A DNA stretch of 40,885 bases from a virus. Under the pieces are notes generated by a model. The model did no database searches, had not been told where the DNA came from, and saw only the letters and a program-made list of their open reading frames with translations. Shown here one piece after another: positions 2,825-40,885 of the stretch. A program made the translations under genes and the position numbers. How positions within the stretch are numbered: the first letter of the stretch is position 1; each line of letters opens with the position of its first letter. The DNA is taken from the IMG/VR virus record IMGVR_UViG_3300010396_000030, positions 1 to 40,885 of that record, one strand, 5' to 3'.

Positions 2825-2891
2825 TTGTAATGCAACCGTTTTTGACATGGGCTAAAGTGGACGTGCGCGCGGCATCCCCCATGCTCGTTAC

Positions 2892-3230
2892 ATGGCGCGT
2901 AAGACCGGCAAGGAACTTGAATTGGGGCCGAACTCCATTCGGAGATGGCGCGAGTACCGGAATCTGACGCTGGAACGCTTGGCGGATCGCGTGCGCGAGC
3001 TCGGCGAGCCGATCACCGCCACCTCATTGTCGCGAATCGAGCGGCGAAAACAGCCCTATTCGCAGCGCATCCTCGAGCGCTTGGCAGACGCCTTGCGGTG
3101 CGATCCCGCGGATCTGGTCATGCGAAATCCGCCGTCGGCCGATCAGGTCGAAATGTGGGCGGTGATCAAGGGTATGCCGGAGGAAACCCAAAAGAGAGCG
3201 CTTCAGGTGCTGAAGGCGCTCGTCGCTTAA
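2892..3230 (+). CDS. CI-like XRE-family repressor
   Basis: A 112-residue HTH protein with the XRE fold near residues 14-70: IRRWREYRNLTLERLADRV, then ITATSLSRIERRKQP, then LADALRCDPADLVM. No LexA/S24 peptidase domain follows, so induction would not work by RecA-stimulated self-cleavage as in lambda CI. The tail (QVEMWAVIKGMPEETQKRALQVL) is probably a dimerisation helix. It is divergent from the Cro-like gene and followed by the lipoprotein gene. There is hardly any Shine-Dalgarno sequence before the ATG, so weak or leaderless initiation is possible. It is the best candidate for the lysogeny repressor. Confidence 0.8.
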   Translation: MARKTGKELELGPNSIRRWREYRNLTLERLADRVRELGEPITATSLSRIERRKQPYSQRILERLADALRCDPADLVMRNPPSADQVEMWAVIKGMPEETQKRALQVLKALVA

Positions 3231-3239
3231 GGTGACGCG

Positions 3240-3473
3240 ATGAGAATATTTTTGATGATGGTCTCCGCGCTGATATTGGCCGGCTGCCAGCCTTCGCTGG
3301 AATCCTTCAACGAGCGCGGCGGCGTGATCCGCCACACGCAAGCCGGCTCGAACATGGCCGGCGTCCAAGCCATGGCCGACAAATATTGCGCCATCTACGG
3401 GCGCGTCGCGAAGATCACCAGCACCGACATCTTGTTGAGCGATACCGTCACTTTCGACTGCATCGACAAGTGA
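3240..3473 (+). CDS. Small lipoprotein, possible superinfection-exclusion factor
   Basis: A 77-residue protein with a typical lipoprotein signal, MRIFLMMVSALILAGC, where LAGC is the lipobox and Cys 16 the lipidated residue. The mature part (about 61 residues) has two more cysteines (KYCAIYG and FDCIDK) that may form a disulphide. It lies directly after the repressor gene, where temperate phages keep genes expressed from the prophage, so a lysogenic-conversion or exclusion role is likely but unproven. An o-spanin is the alternative, less likely because the late lysis genes lie elsewhere. Confidence 0.75.
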   Translation: MRIFLMMVSALILAGCQPSLESFNERGGVIRHTQAGSNMAGVQAMADKYCAIYGRVAKITSTDILLSDTVTFDCIDK

Positions 3474-3694
3474 GCGATTGGGAGGCGACGGCGGGCGGTA
3501 TCTGCATCGCGCTGTTTCTTCTCGTCCTCGCTGGGCTCTATCTGATCCCCGATCGACCGCACAGACCCGCTCCGCAGCCGGTCTTCGCGCGCGTCGCGAC
3601 AAGCAATGGCGGCTCGGTCGTTGGGCGGCTCCTTCCGATGCAAAATTGCCCCGCCGCCGTCATCTGCGCTGATCCCTTGGATTACCGTCCCTAA
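3470..3694 (+). CDS. Small inner-membrane protein
   Basis: A 74-residue protein from GTG at 3470, overlapping the lipoprotein stop as GTGA. One hydrophobic segment, ICIALFLLVLAGLYLIP (about residues 11-27), is followed by a Pro/Arg-rich tail with two cysteines. The coupling to the lipoprotein suggests that the two act together at the envelope. No family recognised. The operators at 3702 begin eight bases after its stop. Confidence 0.6.
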   Translation: MSDWEATAGGICIALFLLVLAGLYLIPDRPHRPAPQPVFARVATSNGGSVVGRLLPMQNCPAAVICADPLDYRP

Positions 3695-3701
3695 ATTAAA
3701 A

Positions 3702-3753
3702 TTGACACCGAGTGTCATTTTTCGCTTGCCTCGAAATTGACACCGGGTGTAAA
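3702..3753 (+). promoter_or_regulatory. Second operator pair (OL-like) before the recombination operon
   Basis: TTGACACCGAGTGTCAT (3702-3718) and TTGACACCGGGTGTAAA (3737-3753) are near-perfect palindromes with a 3-bp centre, 35 bp apart, and match the sites at 2791-2824. A modest rightward promoter can be drawn with -35 TTGCCT (3726-3731), 16 bp, and -10 TGTAAA (3748-3753), so that the second site covers the -10. This would let the repressor shut off the rightward operon, as OL does in lambda. The sites are clear; the promoter is tentative. Confidence 0.65.
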
Positions 3754-3784
3754 AGCGACGCCATCACCTCAACGCGACGGGTGA

Positions 3785-3895
3785 TCGGCGCGCCGACGAT
3801 CGGCGTAGTGGGGGAATGGGCAACGTCTCGTTTGGTTTGAGCGAGACCGCCTCTCTCGACGCGACGACCCGCCATCGCAACCCCGGTGGCGGGTC
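3785..3895 (+). other. Structured leader of the rightward operon: three hairpins
   Basis: The 160 bases between the operators and the first well-supported start (3915) hold successive inverted repeats: CGCCGA/TCGGCG (3791-3796 with 3800-3805; an overlapping perfect 12-bp palindrome lies at 3785-3796), GTCTCG/CGAGAC (3825-3830 with 3842-3847), and GACCCGCCA/TGGCGGGTC (3866-3874 with 3887-3895). A reading frame from 3816 runs through but its early residues look non-protein-like. The region may be an antitermination or leader RNA; no known class is recognised. Confidence 0.45.
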
Positions 3896-3914
3896 CAAGA
3901 AAGGGTACGGGGTT

Positions 3915-4169
3915 ATGCTTCAGGCAGCGAACAGCAATTTCGCAGCCTCGCTCGATCAAGCGGTTATCGGGCAGGCGATCACGATCCGGCAACCTCATCG
4001 CAAACACGGCCGATGCTATGCGGCCTTCGCCGGTCACGTCGGCGACGGCAAGCACATCCTGGCGCGCAAGCTGATCGCCAGCATGTGGCGCTCGCGCTGG
4101 ACGAAGCCGCTGCCGGTGGCGCGCGCCGATGTTCTGGGTGTGCATTTGCACGAGGCGGGGGCCCGGTAA
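3915..4169 (+). CDS. Hypothetical early protein, first gene of the rightward operon
   Basis: An 84-residue protein from ATG 3915, with AAGGG nine bases upstream. The frame stays open back to an ATG at 3816 (117 residues), but that extension spans the hairpin leader and is Gly/Arg/Thr-rich without clear structure, so I prefer the shorter form. The sequence (QAITIRQPHRKHGRCYAAF, then ILARKLIASMWRSRW) is basic and could bind nucleic acid. The stop overlaps the next start (TAATG). Function unknown. Confidence 0.5.
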   Translation: MLQAANSNFAASLDQAVIGQAITIRQPHRKHGRCYAAFAGHVGDGKHILARKLIASMWRSRWTKPLPVARADVLGVHLHEAGAR

Positions 4170-4366
4170 TGAACGGAATCGACCTTCCCTCGATCACCGC
4201 GGCGCTCACCGACGCGCACCTATCGATCTGGCGCGAGGCGCAGCAGGACATGGCGCGCCGCATCGCCCGCGCTCTCCAGCCGCTGACAAACCCGAACCAT
4301 AGCGAGGCCGAGCGGTTCGAGGCCCTCAGCAAAATCATCTCGATCTGCAAGCAGGCGATCCTGTGA
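4169..4366 (+). CDS. Hypothetical small protein
   Basis: A 65-residue, mostly helical protein (SIWREAQQDMARRIARAL then EAERFEALSKIISICKQAIL) with no recognisable domain. The ATG at 4169 shares its A with the preceding TAA, and the TGA overlaps the next GTG. It belongs to a chain of short genes translated by coupling at the front of the recombination operon. Confidence 0.65.
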   Translation: MNGIDLPSITAALTDAHLSIWREAQQDMARRIARALQPLTNPNHSEAERFEALSKIISICKQAIL

Positions 4367-4440
4367 GCCCGCTGCTCTATTGGGTCCTGCTCGTCGCGAT
4401 GGGTATCAACCTGCTCCTCTCGATCGGCTGGCCGTCATGA
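4363..4440 (+). CDS. 25-residue single-span membrane microprotein
   Basis: A tiny frame starting at GTG 4363, overlapping the previous stop (GTGA) and ending in a TGA that overlaps the following ATG (ATGA). The product, VSPLLYWVLLVAMGINLLLS then IGWPS, is almost entirely one hydrophobic segment. Exact overlap on both sides is the main reason to accept it. Function unknown; it could be a membrane peptide modulating a host protein. Confidence 0.5.
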   Translation: MSPLLYWVLLVAMGINLLLSIGWPS

Positions 4441-8077: not shown

Positions 8078-8442
8078 CCTGGCCGATCACGCTTGAGGAG
8101 GCGGGAGAGCGGCTGCATTGGAAGCGCGGGCTGCGCGCGCTCAAGGCGCACGCCAAGCGCCACGGCATCGGACGTTGCGTCGGCCGCGGGCCCGGCGGCA
8201 TCATCCTCGACGAAGCCGACTATCAAGCCCTTTACCGGAGCCTCCCATGCCCCTCAAACTCGTCAAGCGCGGCGCCGTCTGGTATGTCCGCGGGACCGTC
8301 CGCGGCCGCTATTGCTTCGAAACTGCGGGCACATCTGAGCGATCGCAAGCCGAGGCGTACCGCGCGAAGCGGGAAGCGCAGCTTTATGAAGCAAGCATCT
8401 TCGGCGAGCGTGCTGCCATTTCCTTCGGCCGGGCGGCGCTGA
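8074..8442 (+). CDS. Putative excisionase / small DNA-binding protein overlapping the integrase gene
   Basis: A 122-residue frame from ATG 8074. The first 57 residues (ITLEEAGERLHWKRGLRALKAHAKRHG then GGIILDEADYQALYRSL) look like a winged-helix excisionase: helix-turn-helix followed by a beta-wing ending in DEADY. From base 8247 the frame overlaps the integrase gene and becomes Ser/Ala/Arg-rich, as expected of a frame sharing DNA with another gene. Position directly before the integrase supports an Xis role. Directionality function is inferred. Confidence 0.65.
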   Translation: MTWPITLEEAGERLHWKRGLRALKAHAKRHGIGRCVGRGPGGIILDEADYQALYRSLPCPSNSSSAAPSGMSAGPSAAAIASKLRAHLSDRKPRRTARSGKRSFMKQASSASVLPFPSAGRR

Positions 8443-9371
8443 ACTATCTCGACTTCGAGACGCGCAGCGAGCGGACCAAGGATTACGTCGCGCAGCTGAT
8501 CGCGCATTTCGGCGAGCGAATCGTCGGGGCGATCGACCAGGCCGCCGCGGATGAGGCGGTCGAGAGCATCACAGGGCTGGATGCCGCGGCATCGACCAAG
8601 GTCAGGATCGTCTACACGCCGCTCACCGCGATTCTGACGCATGCGGCAAAGCGCGGCTGGTGCGCCTACCCGCATTTCGACAAGCCGGAGCCGCCGCCGG
8701 GCTCGACCCGCTGGCTCGCCCCGCTCGAGGCCTTGGCGCTGATCGAGGGCGCGGCGCCGCATTTGCGGCCGATGCTGTCGTTCTTTTTCGGCGCCGGCGC
8801 GCGCGTGGCGGAAGCGCTCGATCTCGAATGGACGGACCTTCACCTCGTCGACGCCAAGGCCAGACTGCGCAACACGAAGAACGGCTTCGACCGGATCGCA
8901 CATCTCCCGCCGGTCACGGTCGCGGCGCTCGCCGAGCTGCCGCATCGCGAGGGCAAGGTGTTCCGCCGCGACGATGGCGAGTCCTACGCCGATCGCGAGC
9001 GTCTCGAAGGCGGCCAGATCAAGACGGCCTTCGCGACCGCGTGCCGCAATGCGGGCCTCCTCCGTCCGGTGCTCAATGAGAAGGGCGAGCCGATGTTGGG
9101 CGACGATGGCGAGCCGCTGCTTATACCCAGCGTCACCCCGCACGATTGCCGCCACACCTGGGCGACGTGGTTTTACGGCGTCACCAAAGACCTGTTGCTA
9201 CTGAAGGATGAGGGCGGCTGGCGCACGCTGGCGATGGTCGAGCGCTACGCGCACCTGATGCCGTCCGAGCTCGTGCCGCAGATCGGGCGGGTGTGGGGGC
9301 CGAGCCATCCGCGCATCGGCCCGCTGCCGGTTGAAGCGCCGCAAGAGAGAAAGGGCGCCGCCCGTGCCTAA
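8247..9371 (+). CDS. int: Tyrosine integrase
   Basis: A 374-residue tyrosine recombinase starting at ATG 8247. The N-terminus is a short AP2-like arm-binding region (KRGAVWYVRGTVRGRYCFETAG), then a SAM-like core-binding domain around residues 55-130, and the catalytic domain. Catalytic residues visible are Arg 186 (GARVAEAL), His 299 and Arg 302 (HDCRHTW), a GGW box near 325, and Tyr 334 (MVERYAHL). It would integrate the phage at the tRNA-Val site matched by 11790-11839. The gene is about 2.4 kb from attP rather than beside it, which is slightly unusual. Confidence 0.92.
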   Translation: MPLKLVKRGAVWYVRGTVRGRYCFETAGTSERSQAEAYRAKREAQLYEASIFGERAAISFGRAALNYLDFETRSERTKDYVAQLIAHFGERIVGAIDQAAADEAVESITGLDAAASTKVRIVYTPLTAILTHAAKRGWCAYPHFDKPEPPPGSTRWLAPLEALALIEGAAPHLRPMLSFFFGAGARVAEALDLEWTDLHLVDAKARLRNTKNGFDRIAHLPPVTVAALAELPHREGKVFRRDDGESYADRERLEGGQIKTAFATACRNAGLLRPVLNEKGEPMLGDDGEPLLIPSVTPHDCRHTWATWFYGVTKDLLLLKDEGGWRTLAMVERYAHLMPSELVPQIGRVWGPSHPRIGPLPVEAPQERKGAARA

Positions 9372-11711: not shown

Positions 11712-11962
11712 ATCCGTGCAAAATCCGCGCAGAGGATCAAGGACATTGCGAATTTCCAAGCGTCATCAGGACGTTGGCGATGACAAGCACACCCTTCACA
11801 CGGGTGGGGTCGTAGGTTCAATCCCTACAGCGCCCACCATCTTTTCCCGCAGAAATCCGCCAGATTTCGATGGTCTTCGCCTCAAGTCAGAAATGCTATC
11901 CTGCATGAACGAAGCACGAATCTGCACGGATTTGTTCCCAAGATCGGTGCAAAATCCGCGCA
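11712..11962. repeat. ATCCGYGCA repeats flanking the attP core
   Basis: Copies at 11712-11720 and 11723-11731 (11 bp apart, one helical turn) lie left of the core; a copy at 11954-11962 and an inverted one (TGCACGGAT, 11923-11931) lie right. A longer 17-bp identity, GTGCAAAATCCGCGCAG, is shared by 11716-11732 and 11947-11963. These fit arm-type integrase sites. The same phased pair recurs at 38978-38997, away from attP. Confidence 0.6.
11790..11839 (+). other. attP: attP core: 3' half of tRNA-Val(CAC)
   Basis: The 50 bases fold as the 3' half of a tRNA: anticodon stem CACCC/GGGTG (11790-11794 with 11802-11806) around the loop TTCACAC with anticodon CAC, variable loop GGGTC, T-arm GTAGG-TTCAATC-CCTAC (11812-11828), then the acceptor strand AGCGCCC, A73 and encoded CCA (11837-11839). 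The 5' half (a GGGCGCT start and D-arm) is absent upstream. Phages integrating into a tRNA carry exactly this piece so that the host gene is rebuilt at the prophage junction. With the integrase present, this is very probably the crossover region. Confidence 0.85.
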
Positions 11963-18190: not shown

Positions 18191-19228
18191 CTAGAACAGC
18201 GCCCCGGCGCTGGCATTGTCCAAGCCGCCGGCGCCGAAGTTCGAGAAGCTGCCGTAATCGGTGCCTTGCGCGGCATTGAAGTCGAAGCCGCTGTAATTCG
18301 GCGTCGGGGCGAAAAGCTGCGACAAGCCCGGGTTGCTCGAAAGCTGGCTGAGCGCCGTGCCGATGCCCTGGCCGATCGACTGGTTGTTGCCGAAATTCTG
18401 CGCCGCGCCCGCCTGGCCCACCGAGGTCGCCGATTGCCCGAGCTTCAGATAGGCCGCCAGCGCGTTGAGGGTGTTTTGATCGAGGCCCAGGGCGTTGTTG
18501 TAGCCGCCCGACACCGAATTCATCGCGTTGACGATGTCGTTTTGCTGGCCGAGATAGGTCGAATAGGGCAGCGCGCCGGTGGTCGCGAGCGTATTGATTG
18601 CCGAGCCGCCGAGATCGGACGCACCGGCAAAGCCGCGGCCCGCGCCCTGAAGCGCCTGAAGCTGACGCTGCAGCTGCGCGTTCTGCCAGTCGATGTTGAA
18701 ATTGCCGAGGCCCTGACCGACCAGACCGGCGCCATAGGGAGTCCCGAAGACGCCGTTTTGCGCATTGACCGAATTGAGCTGATCCTGCAGCTGCTGGACC
18801 GAGCGGTTGTAGAGCGCCGACTGCGGGTCGAAGCCCGTCTGCAAAATCTGATTGCCCGCGCCATAGAGGCTCGACGCCGCGCCCTGTTGCGCCGGGGCGA
18901 CGGTGCCCATGCCATAGGCCGAGGCCTGCTGCGCCGCATTGAGCGCGCCGGCGCCGTAAGGGTTGGCGGCAGCGTTCTCGCCCGCAGTCAGCAGCGGGTT
19001 GATCGTCATCAGCGGCAGCGACGTGCCGTATTGCTGCAGCTGTTGGAGGATTTGCTGGTAGTTCTGATCGGCGCCCGGCTGGTTCTGTGGGATGTAGGCC
19101 GGGGGCGGTGCCGAGCCGTTATAGAAGCCGCCCGCGCCGCTCCCGCTCGGAGCATTGACGTCGTTGTAGATCGTGCTGCCGACAGAAGCCGCCACGCCGG
19201 CGGCGGCAATGCCCGCGATGACGCCCAT
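18191..19228 (-). CDS. Ejection-type internal virion protein, Gln/Asn/Gly-rich
   Basis: A 345-residue protein from ATG 19228 (ATGA overlap with the acetyltransferase gene). It begins with a hydrophobic helix, MGVIAGIAAAGVAASVGSTI, then a Pro/Gln-rich segment and repeated Gln/Ala/Asn/Gly-rich units (YGAGALNAAQQASAYGMG, LYGAGNQILQTGFDPQ). The membrane-prone start and flexible repeats fit a P22 gp7-like protein ejected into the periplasm. No enzymatic motif. Confidence 0.6.
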   Translation of the reverse strand: MGVIAGIAAAGVAASVGSTIYNDVNAPSGSGAGGFYNGSAPPPAYIPQNQPGADQNYQQILQQLQQYGTSLPLMTINPLLTAGENAAANPYGAGALNAAQQASAYGMGTVAPAQQGAASSLYGAGNQILQTGFDPQSALYNRSVQQLQDQLNSVNAQNGVFGTPYGAGLVGQGLGNFNIDWQNAQLQRQLQALQGAGRGFAGASDLGGSAINTLATTGALPYSTYLGQQNDIVNAMNSVSGGYNNALGLDQNTLNALAAYLKLGQSATSVGQAGAAQNFGNNQSIGQGIGTALSQLSSNPGLSQLFAPTPNYSGFDFNAAQGTDYGSFSNFGAGGLDNASAGALF

Positions 19229-19725
19229 CAGCCCCTCACCATCTTGTCCCAGCAGTTCTCGACATGCGAGTAGCCGCGCTTTTTCAGGACCGGCCCGAGA
19301 TATTCGAGAAACGCCTTGTCGTGATACCAGATGCGCACCCACCGTCCGGCGAACTCGGCGGGGATGTCGCGCTCGGCTTTGTCGATCATGCTGACGCCCG
19401 CGCCGCTCGCGCGGTGATCCTTCGTGACGAAGATGCCGTCGCCCATGATGTGCATCGTCGCGGAATAGTGGATATGCGGCATCACCATGTAGCTGGCGTA
19501 CCCGATGAGATCGCCGCGCAGCCGCGCGCCTACCACGCGCAAGATTCCTTTATCGGCCAGCGCCAAATACTGATCCCAATCGACCGAGAGCGGCATCAGG
19601 TCGCGGTAAACCCCGACCTCCTGCCAATGGCGCTCGACGAGATCGGGGAGCCCGTCATCCATCAAGGTCTCAAGCGGCTCCCACGCCAGCTCGCAGCTAA
19701 GCGTTCGCGTCCGCATCGCCCGCAT
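19228..19725 (-). CDS. GNAT-like acetyltransferase
   Basis: A 165-residue protein; ATG 19725 or 19716 are both possible, and it overlaps the hydroxylase gene by 29 bp. The GNAT plan is visible: an N-terminal helix (DLVERHWQEVGVYRD), strand VVGARLRGDLIGYASYMV, strand TMHIMGDGIFVTKDHRASGAG with the Arg/Gly-x-Gly/Ala acetyl-CoA loop, and a C-terminal strand WYHDKAFLEYLGPVLKKRGY. It would transfer an acyl group to an amine. The target is unknown. It sits in a block of modifying enzymes and ejection proteins. Confidence 0.75.
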   Translation of the reverse strand: MRAMRTRTLSCELAWEPLETLMDDGLPDLVERHWQEVGVYRDLMPLSVDWDQYLALADKGILRVVGARLRGDLIGYASYMVMPHIHYSATMHIMGDGIFVTKDHRASGAGVSMIDKAERDIPAEFAGRWVRIWYHDKAFLEYLGPVLKKRGYSHVENCWDKMVRG

Positions 19726-20290: not shown

Positions 20291-20448
20291 GCGGCCGGCT
20301 TCATCAGGAGTTGGCGCGCGGCGTCGGTGGTCGGACGCTCGACGAATCGCGGCAGCGGATCGAGGGTGATGTCCGCGGCAAGCGGGTCGATCATCTCGTC
20401 GGTTGAAAGCGCCTCGACGGGGCCGATATCGATGGGATCGAGCATCAT
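20287..20448 (-). CDS. 53-residue acidic protein between lysozyme and hydroxylase
   Basis: Starts at ATG 20448 overlapping the lysozyme stop and ends in ATGA with the hydroxylase start, so coding is well supported. The peptide is Asp/Pro/Leu-rich with three related units: MLDPIDIGP, MIDPLAAD and TLDPLPRF. It resembles no family that I recognise. Being directly upstream of an Asp hydroxylase, it could be its substrate or a chaperone for it; that is speculation. Confidence 0.6.
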   Translation of the reverse strand: MMLDPIDIGPVEALSTDEMIDPLAADITLDPLPRFVERPTTDAARQLLMKPAA

Positions 20449-20918
20449 GCCGCGGCGGGCCAGTTCCCGGTCAACAGCATGTCGGCGATCCGGCGCGCGC
20501 GGGCCGGCGCTTCATCGATCGCCCATTTGCTGTCGAGCACCGCAGCCTTGGCGCCGGGCCAATCCGAGGAGCGGATCGCCGCCAGCAGGTCGGTGAATTC
20601 TGACAGACGCTCGCGGCCCATCGTATAAGCCATGTTGGTGAGCGCGGCGCGACGCGGGCTGCCCAGCAGGCTCCACGCGCCGATGCCAAGCAGCTGAGAC
20701 GCATCGCCCCGCGCCAGCGCGAGCCGGCTATCGATCAGCGCCTGGGCTTCGGGGACCGTGAGCCCCGAGCCATCGAGCCGGATGCCCCAGCCGATGGTCG
20801 GATGCCCGATCACCGTCGATCCCGGACCGATGGGCTTTCCGGTCGCATCGTCATAGACGGTCGCGCGATAGCCCTCGTCGCTCTTGATCAGGTCCGCGTC
20901 GGTGTCGAGCCGAAGCAT
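20445..20918 (-). CDS. GH24 phage lysozyme (endolysin)
   Basis: A 157-residue muramidase. The GH24 site appears as Glu 15 (IKSDEGYR), Asp 24 (VYDDATG) and Thr 41 (TIGWGIRL), followed by helices (RRAALTNMAYTMG) typical of the family. No signal or anchor segment, so it would need a holin. The spacing between Asp and Thr is longer than in T4 lysozyme. It is embedded between the basic protein and the hydroxylase gene rather than beside an obvious holin; candidates are at 22216 and 38496. It could alternatively be virion-associated. Confidence 0.85.
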   Translation of the reverse strand: MLRLDTDADLIKSDEGYRATVYDDATGKPIGPGSTVIGHPTIGWGIRLDGSGLTVPEAQALIDSRLALARGDASQLLGIGAWSLLGSPRRAALTNMAYTMGRERLSEFTDLLAAIRSSDWPGAKAAVLDSKWAIDEAPARARRIADMLLTGNWPAAA

Positions 20919-21350: not shown

Positions 21351-21800
21351 CTATTGCGTGTTGGCGAAACCGGTGAAGCCCTGCTGCACGAAGTCGCCTT
21401 GCGCGTTGACATTCTCTTGCGTGCTGGCACCGCCACCGGCGGTGAATTCGACGGTCAGCGCATTGCCAGGAGTCGCCCGCAGATCGAGACCGCAAAGATC
21501 GATCGAGGCGAGCCCGTTGGCGGCGCTGTTGAGGTCCTTGGACCAGATCACCGTGCCGCTGCCGCTCGCGCCGTCGCGCACCACGAGCTCACCCGCGCCG
21601 GCGCTGGTGCCGGAGAGCGACGCGCTGATGCAGCGCAGGCGGGTTTGGGTGCCGGTCGTGGCGGCATTCGTCGGCGCCGCAACCGAGGCGGTGGCCTGAG
21701 CCGCGCCCGCTGGACGGTTCGTGATTTGCCAAGGCGCCGACGCCCAGGCAAGCGACGGGAGCAGAACCAGCCAGAAGGCGATGAGCCAGGCGCGCAGCAT
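21351..21800 (-). CDS. Exported tail-region protein
   Basis: A 149-residue protein from ATG 21800, overlapping the upstream stop. It has a clear Sec signal peptide, LRAWLIAFWLVLLPSLAWA, with cleavage after AWA near residue 21. The mature part is a beta-rich Gly/Ala/Thr sandwich (ISASLSGTSAGAGELVVRD, GNALTVEFTAGGGA) with two cysteines. It is one of five successive products with signal peptides. Role unknown; receptor or surface binding is plausible. Confidence 0.65.
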   Translation of the reverse strand: MLRAWLIAFWLVLLPSLAWASAPWQITNRPAGAAQATASVAAPTNAATTGTQTRLRCISASLSGTSAGAGELVVRDGASGSGTVIWSKDLNSAANGLASIDLCGLDLRATPGNALTVEFTAGGGASTQENVNAQGDFVQQGFTGFANTQ

Positions 21801-22144
21801 TAGAAGCCCGGCACGTACCGGATGTTGCCGCTGGCGTCGATCACCGTCAGCCACTCCTGCACCGCCGTGTGCGACCCGGTCGGGCCGAGCGAGCCCAGCA
21901 CCGTCGCAACCGATCCATTCGCGGCAAAGCCGAGGCTGGTCGCCGGCTGCATGTTGGTGTTGACCGACTGGATGAGCGCATTCAAATCCGGCATCGCGAT
22001 CGGGAAATTCGCCGGATTGGTGCCCGTCGGTCCGGTGAAGAGCGGAAGCGTCGCGGAGACCGCCGACCCGATCAGCATCGCCGAGACCGTGAGGCCCAGC
22101 CCGAACACGGCGCCGGACAGGAATTTCTTGAGCAACCCCTTCAT
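21800..22144 (-). CDS. Exported or membrane-anchored tail-region protein
   Basis: A 114-residue protein from ATG 22144 behind GGAGGGAAAG. N-terminus KGLLKKFLSGAVFGLGLTVSAM then LIGSAVSA is a signal peptide or anchor with a VSA cleavage site. The mature part contains LPLFTGPTGTNPANFPIAMPDLNALIQSVNTN, a motif common at the start of phage fibre proteins, and ends in a short beta region. A palindrome at 22185-22202 lies 40 bp upstream. Confidence 0.65.
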   Translation of the reverse strand: MKGLLKKFLSGAVFGLGLTVSAMLIGSAVSATLPLFTGPTGTNPANFPIAMPDLNALIQSVNTNMQPATSLGFAANGSVATVLGSLGPTGSHTAVQEWLTVIDASGNIRYVPGF

Positions 22145-22184
22145 CTTTCCCTCCTGGCGCATCGGCGCCGCTGCTGGACAATAT

Positions 22185-22202
22185 CACACTAAAACAGGTG
22201 TT
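22185..22202 (-). promoter_or_regulatory. Late-type palindrome, site 3
   Basis: CACACTAAAACAGGTGTT matches the ACACY-N6-GGTGT palindrome also seen at 32419, 38764 and 39805, and is followed on the plus strand by GAAT. It lies 40 bp before the gene starting at 22144, in a 71-bp gap. A minus-strand -10-like TGATAT follows it. Regulatory function is inferred from recurrence. Confidence 0.5.
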
Positions 22203-22215
22203 GAATAGAGGCGCG

Positions 22216-22392
22216 CTAATGCCCGTGCGTCAGCAGGGTGATGATCATCCCTCCCATGCCGAGGATCACCACGATAAGGTTGGCGATCACCGCGGTCATC
22301 ACCGCCCACCACCGCTTCGAGCACTCGCCTTGATGCTCCTCGAGCTTCTTCAGCACGTAGAGCGGCGTGATGACGACTCCCTCATCGCTCAT
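22216..22392 (-). CDS. Small membrane protein, holin candidate
   Basis: A 58-residue protein from ATG 22392 to TAG 22216. A charged N-terminal helix (YVLKKLEEHQGECSKRWW) is followed by one membrane segment, AVMTAVIANLIVVILGMGGMIITLL, and a short HGH tail. Size, single span and position near the lysozyme gene make it a holin or antiholin candidate, but there is no family signature. Confidence 0.6.
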   Translation of the reverse strand: MSDEGVVITPLYVLKKLEEHQGECSKRWWAVMTAVIANLIVVILGMGGMIITLLTHGH

Positions 22393-22408
22393 CGTTAAAA
22401 TTCTCGCT

Positions 22409-23575
22409 TCAGAAGTAAGCGGTGACGACGATCACGGCTGACGCGCCCGCAAAGCCGGCAGTTCCGCTGGTCCCCGCCCCGCCCGCCGATCCCCCGGCGC
22501 CGACCGCAAAGGAATAGGTCGCTGCCGGATTGTTGATTTGCAGCTCGACATACTCGCCCGCCCCCCCGCCGCCGCCGGCAGCGAGCGAGGCCGAAGCGAC
22601 TCCCGGCGCGCCCGCGCCGCCGCTGCCCGTGCTGCCCGGCGCCAAGCCGGAGATACCGCCGCCGCCGAAGGGGCTGGAAGCGCCGATACCGCTAATCGGG
22701 ACTGGGTATTGGGCATTGGATTGAGCGCCGGTCCCGCCCGTCGCGCCGGGAAGACGCAGGTACGCAGCGCCAGTGCCGCCCGATCCGCCGGCGCCGCCCG
22801 CGCCAGGCGCGGTCCCGGCATTGGACAAGCCCCCGCCCGAACCGCCCTTCGCGACGATGCCGTTGAAGGAGGTGTCGCCGCCGACCCCGCCCGCAGTGAC
22901 CGCGCCCCCGGTCCCCGACCCGCCGCCGCCGCCGCCGCCGCCGATCATGCGGACGATCAGATAAGCCGCGCCGGCCGGCGTCGCGTAAGTCCCGCTGCCG
23001 CTGTTCTCGACGGTGATCGAGGGCGGCTGGGATTTAGGCGCCGAGGTCAGCAGGACATATTCGGTGCCGTCATAGATCGCCATCGCGCTCTGGCCCGAGA
23101 CGATCTCGCCACCGGTCAGGACGGCAAGGCCCGAGGCGGTGATCTTGTCGATGATCGTTGCCGGCTGGCCGCCGACGCTGAGCGTCACCGACGCCGTGTT
23201 GGTGAAGCCGGGAATCCAGGTGACGATGTTGCCGGCGTTCAGCGCGAAGCTGTTCGGAGCCGTGGTCGAGATCACCTGCGCGTTCGCCGTCCCGGTGGAG
23301 GTGCCGCCGGTAAAAACCACCGTGCCGCCCTGCGCATTCGAGAGCGGCGTCGTCAGACCCGAGAGCGAGCTGATATCCGAATTCGCACCGTTCTTCGCGA
23401 GGTTCGTATTCGCGCAGCCCATGATGGTGTTGAAATTCGACATCACCTGATTGGCGTCGGCCGTCGAGCCGTTCGTCAGGGTGAAGGTGTAGGGCGTGCA
23501 GTTCGAGGCGAGCGCTGGCGCGGCCGCGGCCAGCAGCAGGAGGAGAGCAGCGATCAATTTGCGCATGGCGTGCAT
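22409..23575 (-). CDS. Tail fibre/adhesin-like protein with Gly-rich C-terminal domain and signal peptide
   Basis: A 388-residue protein; ATG 23575 follows AAAGG, and ATG 23566 is an alternative. N-terminal signal MRKLIAALLLLLAAAAPALA with an ALA cleavage site. The middle has the usual fibre motif (ANQVMSNFNTIMGCAN, NGANSDISSLSGLTTPLSNAQGG in separate blocks). From about residue 225 come poly-Gly runs (VRMIGGGGGGGGSGTGG, GGAGGSGGTGAAYL, GAGGSAGGAGTSG), like the polyglycine-II sandwich of T-even-type gp38 adhesins. It would be the receptor-binding tip. Confidence 0.75.
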   Translation of the reverse strand: MHAMRKLIAALLLLLAAAAPALASNCTPYTFTLTNGSTADANQVMSNFNTIMGCANTNLAKNGANSDISSLSGLTTPLSNAQGGTVVFTGGTSTGTANAQVISTTAPNSFALNAGNIVTWIPGFTNTASVTLSVGGQPATIIDKITASGLAVLTGGEIVSGQSAMAIYDGTEYVLLTSAPKSQPPSITVENSGSGTYATPAGAAYLIVRMIGGGGGGGGSGTGGAVTAGGVGGDTSFNGIVAKGGSGGGLSNAGTAPGAGGAGGSGGTGAAYLRLPGATGGTGAQSNAQYPVPISGIGASSPFGGGGISGLAPGSTGSGGAGAPGVASASLAAGGGGGAGEYVELQINNPAATYSFAVGAGGSAGGAGTSGTAGFAGASAVIVVTAYF

Positions 23576-23586
23576 GGCGTCGCCTT

Positions 23587-24354
23587 TCAGGGCATGTGCG
23601 TGAAGAAGAAGGGAACGGAAGACGCTGGTGTGGCACCCGGAGCTATCGCAATCGCAATCGTGCCCCAAAAATTATTGGCCGCGGTGGCACTGTTGGTGAT
23701 CGTAATAGTCGAGACCGTCAGCGCACCATGCGTCGATTGCGTGTTACTGAATCCCTCGGTTGCCGAAGAAAAGCTATCGGCACCGAGTGCCGATTGATCG
23801 CCACCTTGATCGGTGAAGCCCGTCGGCGTCGAAAAGGTGGTCGAGCTCGCTTTATAACTGACACCGACGAAAGCGAGGATCATGCAGCCGTCTACCGTCG
23901 TGGTGACGCTGTTGAAGCTGGCGGATTTGCTATTGCCACCTTTCGGCGTGGAATGGGCATTGATCGGTGTAGCGCCGTCTTGTCCTGAAAGCTCAATGAT
24001 GATTGCGCTTTCCGTGTCCGAGGTTCCGCCAGAGGTGCCGAAGATGTAGCTTGCCGGCTCGCTTCCGCCGGCTACATGCCAGCCGCTATTGGTCTCACCA
24101 TCGGGTGAGCCATCTGAGCCGAATGCAGTGAACGCGGCCGGCGGCGTCGGAAATCCGCTGACGGGCATGTCGGCCGAGACGAAGGCGATGAGGATATCGC
24201 CACTTACCCAACCAGGATTGTTGACCACGGCGCTCGACGTGCCGTGACCCGTCGCGATCGAGACGACGGAGAGTGCGGCACGCGCATCGAACGGCGCGAC
24301 AACAAGCGCGACGAGCAGAAGCAGCGAAAGGGAGATACGCCGTAAGATCGTCAT
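23587..24354 (-). CDS. Exported beta-sandwich protein of the tail-fibre cluster
   Basis: A 255-residue protein with signal peptide [20 protein letters not shown] to DARA (cleavage after ARA). The mature region ([46 protein letters not shown]) follows a beta-sandwich plan seen in many phage-encoded proteins next to fibres, with GDxLI and CxILxF strands. Carbohydrate or receptor binding is likely. ATGA overlap with the upstream fibre gene. Confidence 0.65.
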
Positions 24355-25736
24355 GCGCCGTCACCCACCAGCACGGCTGTCGCCGTCGAGCTGATCGTCG
24401 TCAGTTGCAGCCCGATCACCGCGTGCTGACCGAAGGTCTTGGTGAAGCTATGCGCGGAAACGAGGGTCGCCGCCGAGACCGCCGAGCCGTTGACCGCCAC
24501 CTGCCCCGCCCCGTCCTGCCGGATGTTGATGTTGCAGACCGTACCCGCAGAGGGAACGATGCTCGCCGGGATCGTCACCGTGACCGCCGAGGCATTCGAG
24601 AAGGCGACGGTCTTGCCGCAATCGTTCGAGACCAGCGTGTAAGTCGTGCCGCTTTGATCGTCTTCCTGATTGAGGACCGAGCCGAAAGTCTGCTGCGCGC
24701 CGGAGAAATCGTTTGCGCCATCGAGAAAGGGCAGATTGTGCCCGCTCGTCCCGGTGTTGGCGATGCAGGCCGTGCCATCGTTCGAGAGATCGGCGCACGC
24801 GATCGTCGCGACAGTGAGCGCGCCACCGGCGCTGTTTTGCTTGACGAACTGGTTGGCGCCGCCGGTCGCCGAGAAATCCGTTGTTCCGGCCGGCAGGGTC
24901 AGCGTGTTCGCCCCAGCGACCGCGGCCGGTTTCACGGTCAGCGTGCCGCTGGTGCTGCCTTTGAGGATCAGATCGCCGGAATTGAAGCTTTGCGGCCCGG
25001 ACCAGGTATTCGTGCCGTTCAGCAGCGGGATCGTCGCGCCGCTCGTGCCCGTCGCGGTCGAGCATCCACTCGCACCGTTCGAGAGGTCCGCGCAAGCGGC
25101 TTGGGAAACGACACCGCTCCCATTCCCCTTGAGCGCGCCGCTCACCGTGCCGGCGCCCCCATTCGAGGAGCCGAGTACGCCACTCACGTCGCCGCCGAGC
25201 GCGACCGGACCGAAGCTTGGGGCGCCCGCCGCGTTGCCGTGCAGCAAAGTCGTGGTGGTGCCGAGCGATCCGAGCGTCGCGATGTTCTGCGTGCCCTGGC
25301 CGATCACCAGCTGATTAAGCGTGAGGGTCGATCCGGCATTGACATTGCCGCCCGATCCCGCCGGCGTCGCCCAAGTCCCATCGCCTCGCCAGAAGGTCGA
25401 GCTCGACGCGCCGGTCCCGCTGTTGAGATTGCCGACCGGGAGATTGCCGCTGACCTGCGTCGCAAGACTGACGCTGCCCGAGATTTGGCTGAACGAATAA
25501 TCGCCGGACTGCGGCACCACGGCGCCCATGCGCGAATTCCAGGACGTGACCGCCGCGGCTGCGGCAAGGTCGGCGATCGATTGCGCGGTGTAATTGACGT
25601 TCGTGCCGCCTTGAAGGCCCGTCACCAACCCGGTCGGCTGTGGCGCAACCGTCGGGAACGAGCTGATCTTCACCTGTGCATAGGCAACGGCGGCGAGAAG
25701 GCAGAGACCGAGCGCGGCGAAGAGAGATTTGCGCAT
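24351..25736 (-). CDS. Tail fibre protein with signal peptide
   Basis: A 461-residue protein. Signal peptide [20 protein letters not shown] (cleavage after AYA), then VKISSFPTV and the standard fibre modules: [41 protein letters not shown], and repeats of [11 protein letters not shown] type. The C-terminal part ([20 protein letters not shown] to VLVGDGA) is a terminal beta domain common in phage fibres. It directly follows the nozzle gene, the expected fibre position. The signal peptide is unusual for a virion protein assembled in the cytoplasm. Confidence 0.8.
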
Positions 25737-27773
25737 CTATCCCTCCGTCGCGATCGGCTGGCCGGCTTCGGTGTCGATCGGCACCCCGCCTTCGGTGACG
25801 ATCACATTCGGCGCCGGCGGCGCGGGTTGGAGGATCGGGAACGCAACCGGCGCGTAGCCGAGCTCCTGATAGCGCACATAGAGATTGCCGATCGCGAGAT
25901 TGGCCGCCGAGATGCCGGTCGCCTGAATGAAGCTTTGGGTGAAGATCAGCGGCTGATCCCAAGGCAACCGGCGCTGGCGATAGAAGGGATAGCTCGCACC
26001 CCAGGTGGCAGCACCCCAGTTGAACCCGCCCCAAATCTGGCCCGCCTCGCCTTCGCCTTGCAGGATTACGGTCCCGAGCAGGTTGTTTTCCTCGTCAGAG
26101 ACACTGATCTGCGCGAGCTGCTGCGGCGGCAGCGCCATCGCGATGATGCTCTCGATGATGGCGCTGCGGCTCATGCTTCCGTCGGCGGCCCAGAGGCACG
26201 GCGCCCACACCCATTGCATTGGCTGATTGTTCTCGACGAAGGACGATTCCGCGGTAGGCGTCACGGTGCTCGAGTAGAGCGTCGCGTTGATGTTCCAAGC
26301 GGCCATGACGAAGCCGTGGCCCGACAGCGCACCGGGCGGCGCCTGAAGCGGTTCGATCAGCGCGGCGGGGAAGGTGTGCGGGCCCGACCAAACCTTGTCA
26401 GAGAAGTGATACCAAAACTCCTGCGCCGGTTGGTTTGGCAGGCTGCCATTAAGCGTCGAGATGCGAAGAACGTCTTGGTTATAGGCCGCGCACATGCGCG
26501 ACGGGAAAACCGAATTGATGAAGGGCTGGATGACGCCCTGACCGCGCCGGCCGATCGGCTCTGTCACCTGCCCCGAAAAGGTGATGATGCGAAGTCCGTC
26601 CGGCGCGACGAAGGCGACGCCTAAGGGCGTCGAGCAGATCGTGTTCGGCGCGTTGGTGCCGACGCCGATGCCTAGATTATTTTGCGCGAGATTGCTCGTC
26701 GCTGCATCGCCCGTGACCTGGACCATGTTGGCGTCGCCCTGGAAAGCGATCAACGATTGCAGCACGCCGCCGACATATTGCGACAGTGGAAGACCCGCTA
26801 GCGCGGAGAAGGTCAATCCGTTCTGGGCGGCCAGCGCCTGGCTGGCGTTCGTCACCTGACAGGGGCTTCCCGCGTCGGAAAACACAAGCGCCGTCCCGAC
26901 CGCGAAATAGGCGCGCGCATTGAATTGACAGATCGATACCGGGACCGCCGCGAGCGGATTGCCGTTGGTGTTGCCGCTGTCATAAAGCGGCGCCGCGAGC
27001 GTGCCGCCCGCGACCTGGAGCGCATCGCCCGCGGAGGAGCCGGTCGCCGATTGCGAGAGCGTGAGCGAGAGGCCGTCCGCGGCAATCGCTTTGATCGTCG
27101 TGCCCGGCGGAATGTTGCCGTTCGTGTCGGCGATCGTCATCCCGACTTGCCATCCGGCCAGAAGCACATTCGCCGAGAGCGTGTCGACGAGCGCGCTGGT
27201 ATGCGTCGACCCGGTCTTGCTGTCGTCGCTGAAGCCCGAAAGGTCGAGCCAACCGAAATACGACCCGTTCCCGCCCGGATAACCCGGATGCGAGATCATG
27301 ATTCGGTTGCCGACCTGTTGCATCGTCGGCGGCGTCCAATCGCCCAACCCTGCCGGCGTGTTCGGCAGCGACGTTGGCCCGCGCGGGATCGAGATGTTCG
27401 CGAAAACCTGGGTCAGAAAATTAAACGCGAAGGGCACGTCCATGCCGGCGTTCGCGCCCGCGGTCGATGCGGCCATGCCGTAGATCCACGGGCCCACGGC
27501 CAAAAGACCGTTGATTTGCGCCGCGCCGTCGACCGCGCCAAATCCGCCCCAGTTTGCGCTACCCCAGTTGAACGACCCCCACTTAACTTCCGCGCCCGCG
27601 CCGCCGGCGATGCCCACCGCTGCCGGCCGCGGCACCCATACGCCTTCGCAGCCCGGAAATGGCACGAGGTTTTGCAGCGACGCCATCGCGCCGGGAAACG
27701 CATTGGTCCCGTCGATCGCGTCGCTCAGACCGCGCGCGCGAAAGGTAAAGGGCTTGGAGCGCCGGATGGCCAT
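25737..27773 (-). CDS. Tail nozzle / stabilisation protein (P22 gp10- or T7 gp12-like)
   Basis: A 678-residue protein without signal peptide. N-terminal segment AIDGTNAFPGAMASLQNLVPFPG and WVPRPAAV corresponds to the conserved entry of podovirus nozzle proteins. Two WG-F/NWG clusters occur (KWGSFNWGSANWGGF near 65 and WGGFNWGAATWGASYPF near 590), a beta-propeller-like core lies between, and a module with NGNIPPGTTIKAIAADGLSL is inserted near 210-255. Located between the adaptor and fibre genes, it should form the tube end that closes the packaged DNA. Confidence 0.8.
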   Translation of the reverse strand: MAIRRSKPFTFRARGLSDAIDGTNAFPGAMASLQNLVPFPGCEGVWVPRPAAVGIAGGAGAEVKWGSFNWGSANWGGFGAVDGAAQINGLLAVGPWIYGMAASTAGANAGMDVPFAFNFLTQVFANISIPRGPTSLPNTPAGLGDWTPPTMQQVGNRIMISHPGYPGGNGSYFGWLDLSGFSDDSKTGSTHTSALVDTLSANVLLAGWQVGMTIADTNGNIPPGTTIKAIAADGLSLTLSQSATGSSAGDALQVAGGTLAAPLYDSGNTNGNPLAAVPVSICQFNARAYFAVGTALVFSDAGSPCQVTNASQALAAQNGLTFSALAGLPLSQYVGGVLQSLIAFQGDANMVQVTGDAATSNLAQNNLGIGVGTNAPNTICSTPLGVAFVAPDGLRIITFSGQVTEPIGRRGQGVIQPFINSVFPSRMCAAYNQDVLRISTLNGSLPNQPAQEFWYHFSDKVWSGPHTFPAALIEPLQAPPGALSGHGFVMAAWNINATLYSSTVTPTAESSFVENNQPMQWVWAPCLWAADGSMSRSAIIESIIAMALPPQQLAQISVSDEENNLLGTVILQGEGEAGQIWGGFNWGAATWGASYPFYRQRRLPWDQPLIFTQSFIQATGISAANLAIGNLYVRYQELGYAPVAFPILQPAPPAPNVIVTEGGVPIDTEAGQPIATEG

Positions 27774-27775
27774 CG

Positions 27776-28525
27776 CTACCAGCCCGTCGCTTTCGTGATC
27801 TTGAGATTGGCCGTCGGATTGCGGAAGCGGCGCCGGTCGAGCGTCACACGCTTGGCACGCGTGTTCGGGTCGTTCATCTCCTTGAGGTATTTCCGCAGGA
27901 TCGCCTGCGAACCGGGGTTGTCGGGATCACCGTCGCCCAGGAAGGTTTGCGAGCGATCATCGTCCGTCAGCTCCATCAGCATGCCCGAGAGCTGCTTCAT
28001 CAGATAACGCTGGTTCGGGAACCACGGCACGACCGCCGAGGTCTCGGGCGTGTCGATGTCGGGCATCTGGCTCTGGTAGCGGAACTGGAACGGATAGGCG
28101 CCCGAGGCCGCCGGCCACACCACGAAGAGCGGCGGCGACGCGCTGAGATCGGTCGCCATCACATAGGGATAGGACTGGTTGCCGGCTTGCTGGACGTACC
28201 AATCGTATTCCGCGAGATCGACGGCGATCATCGGATAGGGCACGCCTTGCAGGAACCACATCTGATCGTCGCGGATGCAGCGCAGGAAATCGGCCGGTAA
28301 CGCATAGGGCCCGGCGCCAGGCTGGAGGTTCGTATAATTGGCGTTGGCGGGCGCCCCGACCGGGTTGAAGACGCTGGTGAAGGTCTTGCGCGCCGCCGGG
28401 ATATCGTAGGTCTGGCAGAGGTCAGAGAGGATCGAATTCAGCAGCTGACCGGCCTGGGCAACATATCCGGGCGCCCGAGCGGTTTGCGTCGCGATCGTGA
28501 CAATCTGCGCAGCGGTCAGCGGCAC
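27776..28525 (-). CDS. Head-tail adaptor (P22 gp4 / T7 gp11-like)
   Basis: A 249-residue protein from GTG 28525. Helical start (TAAQIVTIATQTARAPGYVAQAG, QLLNSILSDLCQTYDI) followed by ALPADFLRCIRDDQMWFL and FVVWPAASGAYPFQFRYQSQ, and a helical end with MLMELTDDDRSQ. This order is that of the tail-accessory factors between portal and nozzle. It has the conserved Pro-Asp-Phe entry. Neighbour order capsid - small proteins - adaptor - nozzle supports the call. Confidence 0.75.
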   Translation of the reverse strand: MPLTAAQIVTIATQTARAPGYVAQAGQLLNSILSDLCQTYDIPAARKTFTSVFNPVGAPANANYTNLQPGAGPYALPADFLRCIRDDQMWFLQGVPYPMIAVDLAEYDWYVQQAGNQSYPYVMATDLSASPPLFVVWPAASGAYPFQFRYQSQMPDIDTPETSAVVPWFPNQRYLMKQLSGMLMELTDDDRSQTFLGDGDPDNPGSQAILRKYLKEMNDPNTRAKRVTLDRRRFRNPTANLKITKATGW

Positions 28526-40742: not shown

Positions 40743-40885
40743 AACGCTGCGCTCCTGCGATAAGCTCTTCAAGCGACGCGATTTTTATTGCTTTCAGGAA
40801 TGCTGCCGCGGCGTGTCCGGGATCATCGTGTCGCGGAAATGCCGCGTACCATTTTTCGAAACCTTGCTCGGCCGCACTCGCGCGC
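40525..40885 (-). CDS. DUF1376-type replication protein, C-terminal part
   Basis: Continuation of the gene that reaches base 1 of the window; bases 40763-40885 duplicate 1-123. The segment contains AAFLKAIKIASLEELIAGAQRY and FIALPATWLNGQRWRDQ, the usual end domain of these phage replication proteins, then a variable tail GSGPSDGSTCTGNG. The stop TGA is at 40525-40527. In the circle the gene is 837 bp. Confidence 0.75.
   Translation of the reverse strand, partial: RASAAEQGFEKWYAAFPRHDDPGHAAAAFLKAIKIASLEELIAGAQRYAETVDRRENGRFIALPATWLNGQRWRDQGAGSGPSDGSTCTGNGVSQRRRPQSPPPVDEESVRIAAGIHGS
40763..40885. repeat. Terminal direct repeat, right copy
   Basis: Exact copy of bases 1-123. Base 40762 is followed by the sequence that begins the window, so the unique circle ends there. 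Confidence 0.95.

Follow-up and report, generated by a model that had tools for sequence, protein, structure and literature searches.

We analysed 40,885 nucleotides of viral DNA (IMG/VR record IMGVR_UViG_3300010396_000030), and by the window we mean this whole stretch. Its first and last 123 bases (1-123 and 40763-40885) are an exact direct terminal repeat, so the record is probably a complete genome. The late operon lies on the minus strand and contains, in order, a terminase-position gene, the portal, the capsid protein, an SU10-type adaptor, a nozzle-position protein, five genes that we call F1 to F5, and a lysozyme. The terminase-position gene and the portal are named by position, and neither matches Pfam. 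The head-tail adaptor (27776..28525, minus strand) matches SU10_adaptor PF24175 with an E-value of 4.5e-11. The nozzle-position protein (25737..27773, minus strand), which adjoins F1 upstream, is placed by synteny only; it has no family, no relative among phage records and none in IMG/VR by pattern search. Directly after it come F1 to F5, and downstream of those lies the phage lysozyme, or endolysin (20445..20918, minus strand), which has no signal peptide. A small ORF with a single transmembrane segment sits between F3 and F4 (22216..22392, minus strand; signal score -19.3) and has no convincing family. It is holin-like by position only, and we leave it unassigned. The two closest capsid relatives that we found, at about 26% identity, are on contigs L085 and L086. 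The late operon also holds a phosphoribosylglycinamide-synthetase-like ATP-grasp protein (PF01071; 13137-14447, minus strand) and an aspartyl/asparaginyl beta-hydroxylase domain (PF05118; 19697-20290, minus strand), and there is a GNAT-like gene at 19228-19725.

The window encodes an integrase (8256-9371) and a tRNA-Val(cac) (11769-11842), and 57 bases of the latter (11786-11842) match a stretch of an alphaproteobacterial genome at 100% identity. The tRNA-Val region and the integrase may mark an attachment site. Together they suggest, but do not prove, a temperate phage of an alphaproteobacterial host. We assume throughout that the host is diderm.

The first-pass annotation had claimed that the five consecutive tail-region products start with Sec signal peptides ending in AYA, ARA, ALA, VSA and AWA, and that the adaptor and nozzle have none. 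Signal-peptide prediction bore this out in full. We scored N-termini with a home-made n-h-c model whose parameters came from general knowledge and on which fifteen known E. coli signals score 11-26 bits. All five proteins were positive and of the typical Sec/signal-peptidase-I type (15.9-26.2 bits; F1 23.5, F2 18.5, F3 26.2, F4 15.9 and F5 17.3), each with a positively charged n-region, a hydrophobic core and an AxA cleavage site, the motifs being as claimed from F1 to F5. The adaptor scored -0.4 bits, the nozzle-position protein 1.4 bits, and every other listed gene of the window 10.6 bits or less. None of the five has a lipobox, that is, a Cys at position +1 of the cleavage site, unlike lipoproteins of the T5 Llp type. 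A gene-caller pass added one further N-terminus, outside the tail region, at 3240-3473 on the plus strand; this is a short lipoprotein-like product (13.1 bits) that starts MRIFLMMVSALILAGC|QPSLES.

F1 (25736-24351, minus strand) has its signal at residues 1-20, a KISxLP fibre N-terminal domain at 21-78, fibre modules, and six mature Cys in the pairs 215/225, 314/324 and 373/401. Its WRGDGTW-type fibre module is present in more than 590 IMG/VR stretches, and its C-terminal part matches phrog_21978. F2 (24354-23587, minus strand) has a signal at 1-26 and a mature domain of no known fold with one Cys; it has no family match and no relative in phage records, and its AlphaFold model (pLDDT 33.7) is unusable. 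F3 (23575-22409, minus strand) starts at the ATG at 23575 and not at the start of the longer ORF, reading MHAMRKLIAALLLLLAAAAPALA|SNCTPY, where the bar marks the predicted cleavage. Behind its signal (1-23) come a fibre module, GANSDISSLSGLTTPLSNAQGGT, and a glycine-rich C-terminal tip, with two mature Cys at 26 and 54. This module, of the form GANSDISSLSGLTTPLSxAQGGT, recurs in two virion fibres of solved structure, 8vbx gp47 (E 7.7e-6) and 7z47, a 'putative tail fiber' (E 3.6e-4). It differs in position, following soon after the signal peptide in F3 but lying hundreds of residues into the chain in the two virion fibres. Across 289 alphaproteobacterial genomes, F3 gave one weak partial match only.

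F4 (22144-21800, minus strand) starts MKGLLKKFLSGAVFGLGLTVSAMLIGSAVSA|TLPLFT and has a signal at 1-31 and a mature chain of 83 aa with no Cys. F5 (21800-21351, minus strand) starts MLRAWLIAFWLVLLPSLAWA|SAPWQI, with a signal at 1-20 and a mature domain that has two Cys, at 57 and 103, and is probably beta-rich according to a low-confidence AlphaFold model (61.5), the PDB matches of which all have E above 0.001. Neither F4 nor F5 has an assigned family or an IMG/VR relative by pattern search. We found no signal-less homologues of the F3 and F4 N-termini, the F3 query having used the wrong start. Two of the products had been called fibre-like, and this holds for F1 and F3, which match known fibre modules; homology is limited to these two of the five. 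On these matches we take F1 and F3, at the least, to be proteins of the tail fibres or tip.

In F1 the signal stands in front of a fibre domain. We built a profile without F1 from twelve signal-less fibre N-termini; some seeds were picked by eye, and several of the matches were non-seed. The KISxLP domain that it describes opens all 21 of 21 signal-less homologues, always at residue 0-5, and the same profile matches F1 exactly from the predicted cleavage site (E 9.7e-5). Compared pairwise, F1 and the homologue L065 align with an E-value of 9e-15. Mature F1 would thus start where ordinary fibres start, and on this sequence evidence F1 is a fibre to which a signal was added. The position of the domain suggests that it attaches to virions.

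A survey of proteins with the F1 module recovered 72 non-redundant IMG/VR fibres, 14 with a signal peptide and 58 without. On the surveyed contigs the genes next to the fibres include those for portal, terminase, internal virion proteins and head closure or nozzle, which identifies the contigs as phages, of more than one kind. Signal peptides cluster near the signal-bearing fibres of this survey: 16 of 47 close neighbours also carry one, compared with 8 of 187 beside signal-less fibres (Fisher p 1.5e-7). Unrelated phage genes in the survey carry a signal in 7 of 290 cases, so a run of five is not chance (about 1e-8 if the genes are independent). L085 and L086 each have a signal-bearing protein with four Cys directly after the nozzle, one of which matches a tail-fibre PHROG. 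It had been proposed that related phages might expose the starts as misassigned; the signal-bearing pattern recurs in the relatives, which speaks against misassigned starts. No signal-bearing fibres were found in Cellulophaga phi38:1 (first 50 kb), FCL-2, SIO1 or Bradyrhizobium phage ppBjS10J-1.

The mature proteins carry a further signature. Disulphides form in the periplasm, and disulphide pairing predicts even Cys counts. Among the F1-module fibres, Cys makes up 1.40% of the mature signal-bearing proteins and 0.28% of the signal-less ones (p 1.4e-7), and the count is even in 13 of the 14 with a signal. Taking all signal-bearing proteins of these contigs, 35 counts are even and 6 odd. After the hypothesis was fixed we ran a second survey with a query unrelated to F1, Burkholderia phage BcepC6B gp19. 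Here again Cys was higher with a signal than without (0.97% against 0.44%, p 2e-4) and counts were more often even (13/15 against 14/27), although the signal-bearing genes were mostly single and not in runs. With one protein kept per sequence cluster, the tallies are 34 even and 6 odd for signal-bearing proteins (p ~8e-6) and 208 and 238 for signal-less ones; signal-less proteins on the same contigs give 123 even and 180 odd. The parity of Trp, His and Met, used as a control, showed no significant bias. When we rechecked the high-Cys signal-less fibres for hidden signals, L015 alone resembled a missed one.

Over these two independent IMG/VR surveys, Cys is enriched 2-5 times in signal-bearing fibres relative to the signal-less fibres that share their modules. 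Even and enriched Cys point to disulphide bonding in an oxidising compartment, and hence the class probably makes use of its signals, and its export is probably real. For F1 to F5 themselves, these class statistics and their own sequences suggest export and disulphides. Their mature Cys counts (F1 six, F3 two, F5 two, F2 one, F4 none) fit the parity pattern in part, and the Cys argument does not reach F2, with a single Cys, or F4, with none.

Two cultured podophages encode something similar. Burkholderia phage BcepC6B gp19 and Xanthomonas phage PBR31 orf035, annotated as 'tail fiber protein' and 'putative structural protein', have a signal peptide followed by a fibre-type mature protein, as here. 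A Cys pair is common to the two (83/100 in gp19, 80/97 in orf035), and at the C-terminus both have the domain of the KpV74 and Peat1 tail fibres, which are without a signal. In contrast to the window, each of these phages has a single signal-bearing gene beside a signal-less fibre or spike, with other modules and no run of five. The gene sits between that fibre or spike and the holin. With a signal-less candidate at hand, receptor binding by the virion need not fall to the signal-bearing protein in these phages. The passages of the PBR31 paper available to us record a signal peptide for the esterase gp40 and do not mention orf035 (PMC10975493).

Our preferred reading, to which we give roughly an even chance, is that F1 to F5 are fibres that leave the cytoplasm through Sec, acquire disulphide bonds in the periplasm and join the particles at lysis. 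Each would carry a cleavable Sec signal when synthesised, be translocated and then be trimmed by signal peptidase I, and the proteins with Cys pairs (F1, F3 and F5) would form their disulphides in the periplasm of the host, taken to be diderm. Particles would meanwhile fill in the cytoplasm, fibre-less. When holin and endolysin opened the cell, the periplasmic fibres would meet these particles and dock through their N-terminal domain. Of the options listed in the first-pass annotation, export with pick-up at lysis fits best with the even and enriched Cys, the position of the F1 signal and the lack of a recognised signal-less fibre. The sequence shows the signals and where they stand relative to the fibre domain; incorporation into virions we infer from domain identity, from operon position and from that same lack, and docking and its timing would follow only on this reading. 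No signal-less fibre family was recognised among the window proteins tested, in a genome with repeated ends, although several large proteins of the window match no family and a cryptic signal-less fibre could be among them. More tentatively still, and with slightly less confidence than we have in the five proteins, some tailed phages may assemble in two compartments, with head and tail tube made in the cytoplasm, disulphide-stabilised host-binding fibres made in the periplasm by host Sec and Dsb, and the two joined when the cell opens.

The main competitor, which we consider possible but clearly the less probable, is that F1 to F5 are exported yet are not virion proteins. They would be fibre-like adhesins, either soluble and set free at lysis or attached to the surface, that mask receptors on host debris, block superinfection or alter the surface of a lysogen. 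Coating or masking of the host surface, another option in the first-pass annotation, falls under this reading. The location of gp19 and orf035 between a signal-less fibre or spike and the holin speaks for such a role, and the integrase of the window would suit a lysogen-surface function. The many cellular genomes with signal-bearing proteins of the same module, which we found frequently in Bacteroidetes, Patescibacteria and Alphaproteobacteria, also speak for a non-virion role. Like F1, these tail-fibre-like proteins have a WRGDGTW-type module behind the signal peptide, but unlike F1, those whose context we examined do not belong to the late operon of a phage. Against a non-virion role, F1 keeps a domain that in signal-less phage fibres stands at the very N-terminus, F3 shares its module with virion fibres, and the five genes directly follow the nozzle with no other fibre gene recognised. 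In addition, delivery to the periplasm would not by itself bring a protein through the outer membrane to the cell surface.

It had also been suggested that the N-terminal helices anchor the proteins to the membrane or the particle, in which case they would stay uncleaved. The N-termini are indeed hydrophobic helices, but we consider this unlikely. All five show the n-h-c layout and an AxA site, which together with Cys-paired mature domains would not be expected of an uncleaved cytoplasmic anchor; the even and enriched Cys of the signal-bearing relatives point to an oxidising compartment, and the homologous domain of F1 begins at the cleavage site. No more plausible, and to our minds a shade less so, is that the genes were captured from host surface adhesins and that the signals are evolutionary leftovers without present use. 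The frequency of the signal-bearing module in the cellular genomes above would agree with such an origin, but five different mature domains all retain intact signals, the pattern recurs across several kinds of phage contig, and a useless Sec signal would mislocalise a cytoplasmic fibre and hence should be lost. Misassigned starts or chance hydrophobic stretches are very improbable: there is an in-frame GTG at codon 22 of F1, but no Shine-Dalgarno sequence precedes it, whereas the assigned starts are made credible by such sequences before F1 (GGAGGG, strong), F4 (AGGAGGG, strong) and F3 (weaker) and by the overlap of the F2 and F5 starts with the stops of F1 and F4, and residue shuffling of the N-termini matched the observed score in only 0, 7, 0, 10 and 19 of 2000 trials (F1 to F5), with the signals recurring in relatives.

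Virion proteins with Sec signals are already known from filamentous phages, where the coat proteins pIII and pVIII carry them and pIII has disulphides. Filamentous particles leave the cell by extrusion through the membrane, whereas the phage described here is a tailed one that lyses its host and encodes an adaptor, a lysozyme and a major capsid protein of the tailed-phage kind. T5 Llp is a phage-encoded exported lipoprotein that blocks the receptor by acting on it; it is not fibre-like, and F1 to F5 have signal peptidase I sites. A Klebsiella screen found partial effects of dsbA on phages and explained them via receptors (PMC13412088), so these effects are not evidence for exported fibres here. 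We found no report of signal-bearing or Sec-exported tailed-phage fibres in the literature searched, where most subscription papers were out of reach, and relative to that literature such fibres would be new.

Tail fibres are usually taken to be cytoplasmic, and an exported, disulphide-type class would let host Sec, signal peptidase and Dsb shape infectivity. If the preferred reading is true, progeny would be fibre-less until lysis, so no particle would bind inside the dying cell, and recombinant fibres of the signal-bearing class would need oxidising expression.

Some arrangements in the survey contigs are worth recording separately. In L008 (7098-7553), L009 (7105-7560) and L110 (7048-7512), a short signal-less gene of about 150 aa lies directly before the signal-bearing fibre. 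At least the one in L110 has a fibre-type N-terminal domain, as if adaptor and exported fibre had been split. In L026, a signal-less protein with a tail-protein N-terminus (2879-4408) precedes the signal-bearing genes. Among the Patescibacteria, L095, L112, L120, L126, L130, L132 and L133 have signal-bearing fibre-module proteins with a common N-terminus of the PNPGHDFT...GDLLYGSA type.
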